Part shown: one piece after another, positions 62,591 through 63,932 of the stretch | Position numbering within the stretch: position 1 is the first letter of the stretch | Layout of the letters: the number at the start of each line of letters is the position of its first letter | Source of the DNA: Dichotomicrobium thermohalophilum | GTDB lineage: Bacteria > Pseudomonadota > Alphaproteobacteria > Rhizobiales > Rhodomicrobiaceae | DNA: 64,000 nt | Direction: 5' to 3' | NCBI RefSeq assembly: GCF_003550175.1 | Contig: NZ_QXDF01000002.1 | Span: 248,001 to 312,000, forward strand | Notes under the pieces: model-generated | Told to the model about the DNA's origin: nothing | The model's database searches: none | The model's input: the letters and a program-made list of their open reading frames with translations, nothing else | Made by a program: the position numbers and the translations under genes

Positions 62591-62758
62591 ATGGCCAAAC
62601 CGACAACACAAAAGATCAAGCTCGTGAGTTCGGCTGGAACCGGATATTTTTACGTGACGAAGAAGAACACGCGGAACCTGACGGAAAAGCTTGTTCTCAA
62701 GAAATACGATCCGGTCGCGCGCAAGCACGTCGAATTCAAGGAAGCCAAGCTGAAGTAA
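62591..62758 (+). CDS. rpmG: 50S ribosomal protein L33
   Basis: This 55-residue protein is L33 of the large subunit. It begins [20 protein letters not shown] and continues [20 protein letters not shown], then [14 protein letters not shown]. It lacks the CxxC pairs, so it is the zinc-free form common in alphaproteobacteria. AGCAGG lies 4-9 bases before ATG 62591. Location after rnr, DUF983 and NUDIX genes is the usual Rhizobiales order. Confidence 0.97.
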
Positions 62759-62939
62759 TTCGGGTGACGTCTGGTCGGCGCGCAAGCGCCCCTCCCGCGA
62801 ACGCCTTGCCAGCCTTCGGAAAATCCAGGACAGGAGAGCCCGGTGGAGCGCGGCACGGGATGCCTGTGTCAATTTGAACGCTGCCGACGCCGCGAGCCAG
62901 CCCCACGACCACTCGGCAGCGGGGTACATCCAAGGAGTC

Positions 62940-63102
62940 GTGAGGGCTGGCCTTCAAGTCAAATCGACCAAAGAGGGCGTTGGTCATTTGACTTGTTGGC
63001 CGAGATGGTACCGGCGCTTGCGAGGAGGCCACTCAACCGCGCACCATCCGGCCTATCCCCCAAGCCAGGAGATGCGGCGAACCTGGCGAGCCGGGGGAAA
63101 CT
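62940..63102. ncRNA. Candidate structured RNA region between rpmG and divK
   Basis: The 658 bases between rpmG and divK contain no convincing gene but two strong hairpins. One (62955-62995) is a 16-bp stem with one bulge: CAAGTCAAAT and GACCAA pair with TTGGTC and ATTTGACTTG around an 8-base loop. The other (63056-63098) is nested: TCCCCC/GGGGGA outside GCCAGG/CCTGGC. Strand and ends are unknown. Past 63220 the region becomes AT-rich. Confidence 0.4.
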
Positions 63103-63288
63103 CTCAATTTCCACAACAGTAAGCGGGAAAAAGCGGCACTTTTCAAGAGTTCTTGATTCTGCCACGCCGTCAAGCCGGCATGTCCCCGCTTTCCTGTTGG
63201 ACAATCACCATTAGCGCATTGTCCGCCTGCGACCTAAATCGCAATCAAGCATAAACTCATAATTCACCAAAAAGCAATATTTACAATT

Positions 63289-63301
63289 GTTTACGGTAAA
63301 C
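63289..63301. promoter_or_regulatory. 13-bp palindrome in AT-rich region downstream of divK
   Basis: GTTTAC and GTAAAC flank one central G in a locally AT-rich stretch (63230-63300). It lies between the convergent rpmG and divK genes. It may be a regulator site for the candidate RNA, or chance. Confidence 0.2.
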
Positions 63302-63416
63302 GGTGCAGCTGCCGCAGGCTATGCACGCTTCAAGCGCTGTCCGCGCGTGAGTTTTCCCCAGGAAATATCACCACATCCGCCTTGTACGGAGCCGATTGCC
63401 GGAGCCTGCTGACCGC

Positions 63417-63932
63417 TTAGCCCTTGTTAATGAACTGCTCGATCGTCTCCAGGAACGCGCCTACCGCGATCGGCTTCGAGATATAGGCCTCGCAGCCACC
63501 CTCACGGATGCGCTGCTCGTCGCCCTTCATGGCGAAGGCCGTGACCGCGATGACCGGAATGTCCTTCAGCGCATCGTCTTCCTTCAGCCATTTTGTCACG
63601 TCCAGACCCGACACTTCGGGGAGCTGGATGTCCATCAGGATCAGGGCTGGCCGATGCTTGCGCGCCAGCGGCAAGGCATCCATGCCGTTGCGCGTCTGAA
63701 CGGTCTGATAGCCGTGTGCCTCCAGAAGATCGTTGAACAGCTTCATATTCAGTTCGTTGTCTTCAACGATCAGCACTGTCTTGCCGCTGGCACTCGACTG
63801 GCCGTTGCCATTCGGGGCCCCGGGGCCCGGCACTGTGGGCTCAACCGGCGGCGCGGACGCCGCACCCCTGGCGCTGTGGGGCTTGGCCGTTCTTTTTCTG
63901 CGGCGTGTCCTCGTATCTTCAAATTCCGGCAT
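63417..63932 (-). CDS. divK: DivK-type single-domain response regulator with N-terminal extension
   Basis: DivK is the cell-fate response regulator that controls CtrA through DivL, DivJ and PleC. The receiver domain (about 51-171) starts [20 protein letters not shown] with acidic residues E57 and D58. It has the phosphorylated Asp at D101 in [13 protein letters not shown] and the Lys in YISKPI near 151. Residues 1-50 are a basic then Pro/Gly-rich tail not found in classical DivK of about 125 residues. No in-frame ATG lies nearer the domain. pleD, its usual partner, is not seen. Confidence 0.88.

Follow-up and report, generated by a model that had tools for sequence, protein, structure and literature searches.

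An EcpR1-family small RNA with two additional conserved hairpins between rpmG and divK of Dichotomicrobium thermohalophilum, and its possible pairing with dnaA

What is encoded in the 658 bp between rpmG and a divK-like gene, where no gene is apparent? We studied this interval in a 64,000-nucleotide stretch of Dichotomicrobium thermohalophilum DNA (the window, whose numbering is used throughout). A sequence-only reading had noticed two strong hairpins there, saw no coding frame and proposed a structured non-coding RNA. None of the four tested ORFs overlapping the stretch matched Pfam, and the stretch does hold a structured RNA, encoded on the minus strand. By its match to an Rfam model (see below) we assign this RNA to the EcpR1 family, with stem-loops SL1 and SL2 as its core. 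Few sRNAs are known that act on the cell cycle of Alphaproteobacteria, and EcpR1 is one of them. Our reading, to which we give a probability of about 0.72, is that the locus encodes a long-form EcpR1 of ~210 nt, a trans-acting sRNA in which an extra loop re-targets dnaA.

The cmscan search against Rfam, a check suggested by the sequence-only reading, gave a full-length match to RF02500 (Atu_C6, EcpR1) with 63.4 bits, above the gathering score of 60 (E 2e-8), and a genome-wide search found this match in single copy. EcpR1 of Sinorhizobium meliloti (also SmelC291 or Sra33) sits between divK-pleD and rpmG, and carries an SL1 with loop UCCGCCGCAUCU and an SL2 whose stem varies and whose loop holds the motif UCCUCG; it acts by base pairing to repress dnaA and gcrA (PMC4414408). 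The window RNA resembles it in the SL1 and SL2 loop motifs, in being single-copy and in the order and orientation divK...ecpR1><rpmG. Its SL1 loop, at the same position, differs from that of S. meliloti by one C-to-U change, and its SL2 loop contains the UCCUCG motif, which is anti-Shine-Dalgarno-like. The likely targets would also be dnaA and gcrA, both predicted for the window RNA from sequence complementarity only. Among relatives, divK/pleD is likewise found upstream of ecpR1, and rpmG converges on the region 3' of SL2 (the SL3-SL4 module, see below) in 74 of 79, with a median gap of 136 nt. In contrast with the divK-pleD locus of S. meliloti, pleD does not intervene between divK and ecpR1 in the window. 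Note that ecpR1 directly follows divK in Rhodomicrobiaceae (63102-63416 of the window, and loci L025 and L028), and that many relatives have a second receiver gene, presumably pleD, between the two.

The minus strand from 62894 to 63101 folded into four clean consecutive hairpins, SL1 to SL4, with -115.1 kcal/mol and a z-score of -6.6 relative to shuffled sequences (Table 1). Two of them had been described before. SL3 has exactly the 16-bp stem, single bulge and 8-base loop attributed to it, and it is strong: with its flanks it reached -29.3 kcal/mol on the plus strand and -27.3 kcal/mol on the minus strand (z -6.3 and -7.1), and no shuffle was equally stable. The nested 6+6-bp structure, which corresponds to SL1 of EcpR1, was also recovered, but alone it was not unusual (z -1.2/-1.4). 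Both hairpins are thus present, and the count of two was short by SL2 and SL4. The family, the minus strand converging on rpmG and the conserved 3' module had equally gone unrecognised. SL3 and SL4 lie directly 3' of SL2, SL3 starting 2 nt past it. A 19-nt imperfect inverted repeat (79%) with arms at 62772-62790 and 63013-63031, the latter within SL2, is probably due to chance.

Table 1 Features of the rpmG-divK interval and its neighbours, in window coordinates
Feature	Position	Strand	Loop or motif	Basis
rpmG (L33), convergent neighbour	62591..62758	+		Pfam PF00471 (Ribosomal_L33)
SL4	62895..62952	-	GUACCCCGCUG at 62917-62927	Fold, covariation, dnaA tests; beyond Rfam model
SL3	62955..62995	-	Invariant loop GCCCUCUUUGG at 62968-62978	Fold, covariation, conservation; beyond Rfam model
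EcpR1 sRNA core	62993..63101	-		cmscan, Rfam RF02500 Atu_C6, model 1-113
SL2	62998..63053	-	GGCCUCCUCG at 63021-63030	Fold and Rfam alignment; motif from PMC4414408
SL1	63056..63098	-	UUCGCCGCAUCU at 63070-63081, the EcpR1 targeting loop	Fold; motif from PMC4414408
Promoter-like site upstream of SL1	63118..63147	-	CTTGAA-N18-CTTACT	Aligned upstream regions, seven Rhodomicrobiaceae
divK-like response regulator, upstream neighbour on the strand of the RNA	63417..63932	-		Pfam PF00072

The core adds a member to the known EcpR1 family; the new part is the SL3-SL4 extension. No Rfam family covered 62895-62992 at E-values up to 5, and a search of 15 relatives against Rfam (E up to 0.1) returned nothing but EcpR1. 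The extension was absent from Rfam 15 and from the literature searched, which did not cover supplements and most subscription papers. S. meliloti EcpR1 is 171 nt at full length and ends in four U; the window form, in contrast, has ~210 nt, no U-tract and two extra conserved hairpins in the terminator's place. EcpR1 of Methylosinus sporium 5 was described as two stem-loops only (PMC12403871), whereas the window RNA has four. The relatives were of two kinds: in most of them something else came after SL2, frequently a plain terminator, and in the rest, as in the window's genome, SL3-SL4 came directly. Half of the long-form EcpR1 lies beyond the public Rfam model, which also scored many divergent members, carriers with EcpR1 motifs among them, below its RF02500 cut-off.

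Across the long-form relatives the loops were nearly invariant, GCCCUCUUUG in SL3 and UUACCCCGCUG in SL4 (the near-invariant SL4 loop contains UACCCCGCUG), and the stem sequences were almost wholly different. Covariation in relatives, another check suggested beforehand, was found in the stems. In an unfitted MAFFT alignment of ten sequences, 92.5% of the cells paired and double changes occurred in 19 of 36 pairs, a level reached by none of 500 shuffles; the pairing collapsed when the partner was slid by one base. In the model-fitted alignment, which leans towards the structure and has 84 rows (80 distinct, four weak opposite-strand matches included), 32 of 34 pairs covaried. On the EcpR1 strand there were 298 G-U pairs versus 28 A-C pairs (about 10:1), an excess indicating selection on the RNA of the minus strand. 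A hidden coding frame was rejected on the lack of a Pfam match among the ORFs tested and on the compensatory changes through which the stems vary, and a dispersed repeat on the presence of the hairpin in single copy in the genome.

These patterns also bear on whether EcpR1 might consist of SL1-SL2 only, with SL3-SL4 serving merely as its terminator or as a bidirectional terminator between the convergent genes ecpR1 and rpmG. That convergent arrangement would suit a terminator, as would the U-tract hairpin that short-form relatives often carry at the same place and the terminator-like site that a scan called inside SL3 on both strands. U was mildly enriched at +3 to +6 after SL4 across relatives, in which we found no clear terminator there; the window has no such enrichment. 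The sequence-only reading, which saw no T-run after either hairpin and dismissed simple rpmG terminators, agrees with our results: no real U-run follows them, and a simple rpmG terminator as the sole role is rejected on the invariance of the loops together with the one-strand G-U bias. Terminators need no near-invariant loops of ~10 nt kept across families while the stems turn over, and the asymmetry between G-U and A-C pairs reflects selection on one strand. Moreover, three genomes (loci L129, L159 and L167) kept SL3-SL4 beside rpmG, with divK upstream, and lost recognisable SL1 and SL2 motifs, which argues for a function of SL3-SL4 of its own. We thus consider the terminator explanation quite unlikely. 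SL2 itself was followed by AACAAG and then SL3-SL4, with neither a U-tract nor a Rho-independent terminator with terminal U. We take this as an EcpR1 variant and keep the family membership, because the terminator comes from the S. meliloti report and the Rfam model does not require it.

In a sample of 397 genomes of the order, the SL3-SL4 model matched 47, from 26 genera, adjoining rpmG; this count includes one genome (G016) whose match looks like chance and another (G007) whose match borders a stretch of N in the assembly. Among 385 genomes sampled from the class, only the window's own had a match. Carriers detected by a pattern scan included Hyphomicrobium, Filomicrobium, Rhodomicrobium, Methyloligella and many Hyphomicrobiaceae MAGs, and an SL1 or SL2 loop motif, or both, stood just upstream of SL3-SL4 in nearly all carriers. 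The matches at L090 (41 bits), where there is no rpmG, and at L144 (28.6 bits) look like chance hits. G007 (contig C85, locus L093) has a pair of EcpR1-like copies and a pair of rpmG genes, separated by ~1.3 kb that includes NN, which probably marks a join made in assembly.

SL3-SL4 could also be a separate sRNA gene, head-to-tail behind ecpR1 and sharing no transcript with it, as its presence without recognisable SL1-SL2 in a few genomes would allow. The 2 nt between SL2 and SL3, however, leave no promoter space outside SL2, nearly all carriers keep the same placement relative to the EcpR1 motifs, and the one apparent distant copy, that of G007, was set aside because of the N run between the two copies. 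A separate gene is accordingly very improbable. A long-form EcpR1 would instead be transcribed as one RNA. Its promoter would lie immediately before SL1, expression would come with stress or stationary phase, like that of the S. meliloti RNA, and SL3-SL4 would be a conserved 3' extension taking the place of the plain terminator hairpin of most other members. The positions of the putative promoter motif, CTTG(A/C)-N-CTTA/ATACT, were kept across seven aligned Rhodomicrobiaceae upstream regions, and the assignment is weak because a generic sigma-70 scan found no site upstream of SL1.

What the extension might do was suggested by its SL4 loop, which is complementary to the ribosome-binding site of dnaA in carriers. 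Of 25 carriers, 12 had 7 or more nt exactly complementary to the SL4 loop no farther than 14 nt from an in-frame, predicted dnaA start; none of 27 non-carriers from the same order did (Fisher p 3e-5). The longest exact complement averaged 7.1 nt versus 5.4 nt (p 2e-5), and the duplex energy -15.3 versus -13.0 (p 6e-4); kinship among carriers confounds these comparisons, whose p-values assume an independence that related genomes partly lack. Counted per family by hand, the proportions were 5/8 versus 0/27 (Fisher p 2e-4). The SL1 to SL3 loops, in contrast, did not differ between carriers and non-carriers in their match to dnaA. Compared with permuted loops, SL4 gave p 0.007 against dnaA. All these p-values are to be read with the eight loop-target combinations that a screen of dnaA and gcrA covered, in which the SL1 and SL3 loops were no better than their permutations against either gene. 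Matched sRNA-dnaA pairs were better than swapped ones in energy (p 0.008) and not in exact-match length (p 0.21).

The best SL4 duplex within the dnaA upstream region of carriers was mostly located 13-20 nt before the candidate start, and the site is typically (A/U)GCGGGGUA, an unusual ribosome-binding site. The window's genome has CAGCGGGG 7 nt ahead of the GTG that is its candidate dnaA start, and the match is perfect over 12 nt in carrier G343; several carriers, including two Rhodomicrobium-type genomes, had no good match. The pairing with dnaA is proposed here for SL4, as compared with SL1 in S. meliloti EcpR1.

The invariant loops on variable stems are typical of protein-binding sites as well, so the extra hairpins might bind an RNA chaperone or other RNA-binding regulator rather than mRNAs, the dnaA match being a coincidence inherited by related carriers. 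In keeping with this, no recurrent mRNA target of SL3 was found in a crude screen of six carriers, which gave 100 sites of the form AAGAGGGC-N(2-12)-ATG; 46 of the 100 sites led into an open frame of 60 aa or more, and none of these frames was homologous to another. Nevertheless, SL4 was the only loop with a carrier-specific match to the dnaA ribosome-binding site, and targeting of dnaA by EcpR1 has been validated in S. meliloti (PMC4414408). We regard a purely protein-binding role as unlikely.

We favour pairing with mRNAs, in which the C/U-rich loops would bind the ribosome-binding sites of cell-cycle messages, SL4 that of dnaA and SL2 possibly that of gcrA, blocking translation and so slowing replication and cell-cycle progression. 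We put at about even odds the wider proposal that a mostly budding or prosthecate lineage of Hyphomicrobiales extended EcpR1 with this two-hairpin module outside Rfam, whose SL4, antisense to the unusual dnaA site, would be a dedicated loop controlling replication initiation and co-evolving with dnaA. If the SL4-dnaA pairing is true, replication initiation in bacteria such as Hyphomicrobium, Rhodomicrobium and Filomicrobium is under an RNA switch that can be tested directly, and EcpR1 would exemplify an sRNA that kept its target and changed the loop reaching it.

As to gcrA, its Shine-Dalgarno sequence GAGGAGGC was exactly complementary to the SL2 loop in locus L033 and six other carriers (7 of 22, the window's genome included), a lead only because 25 such sites occur near an ATG in the genome. 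At loci L036-L039, all of one genus (g4), another hairpin, lacking the UCCUCG loop, took the place of SL2, and SL1, SL3 and SL4 were kept.
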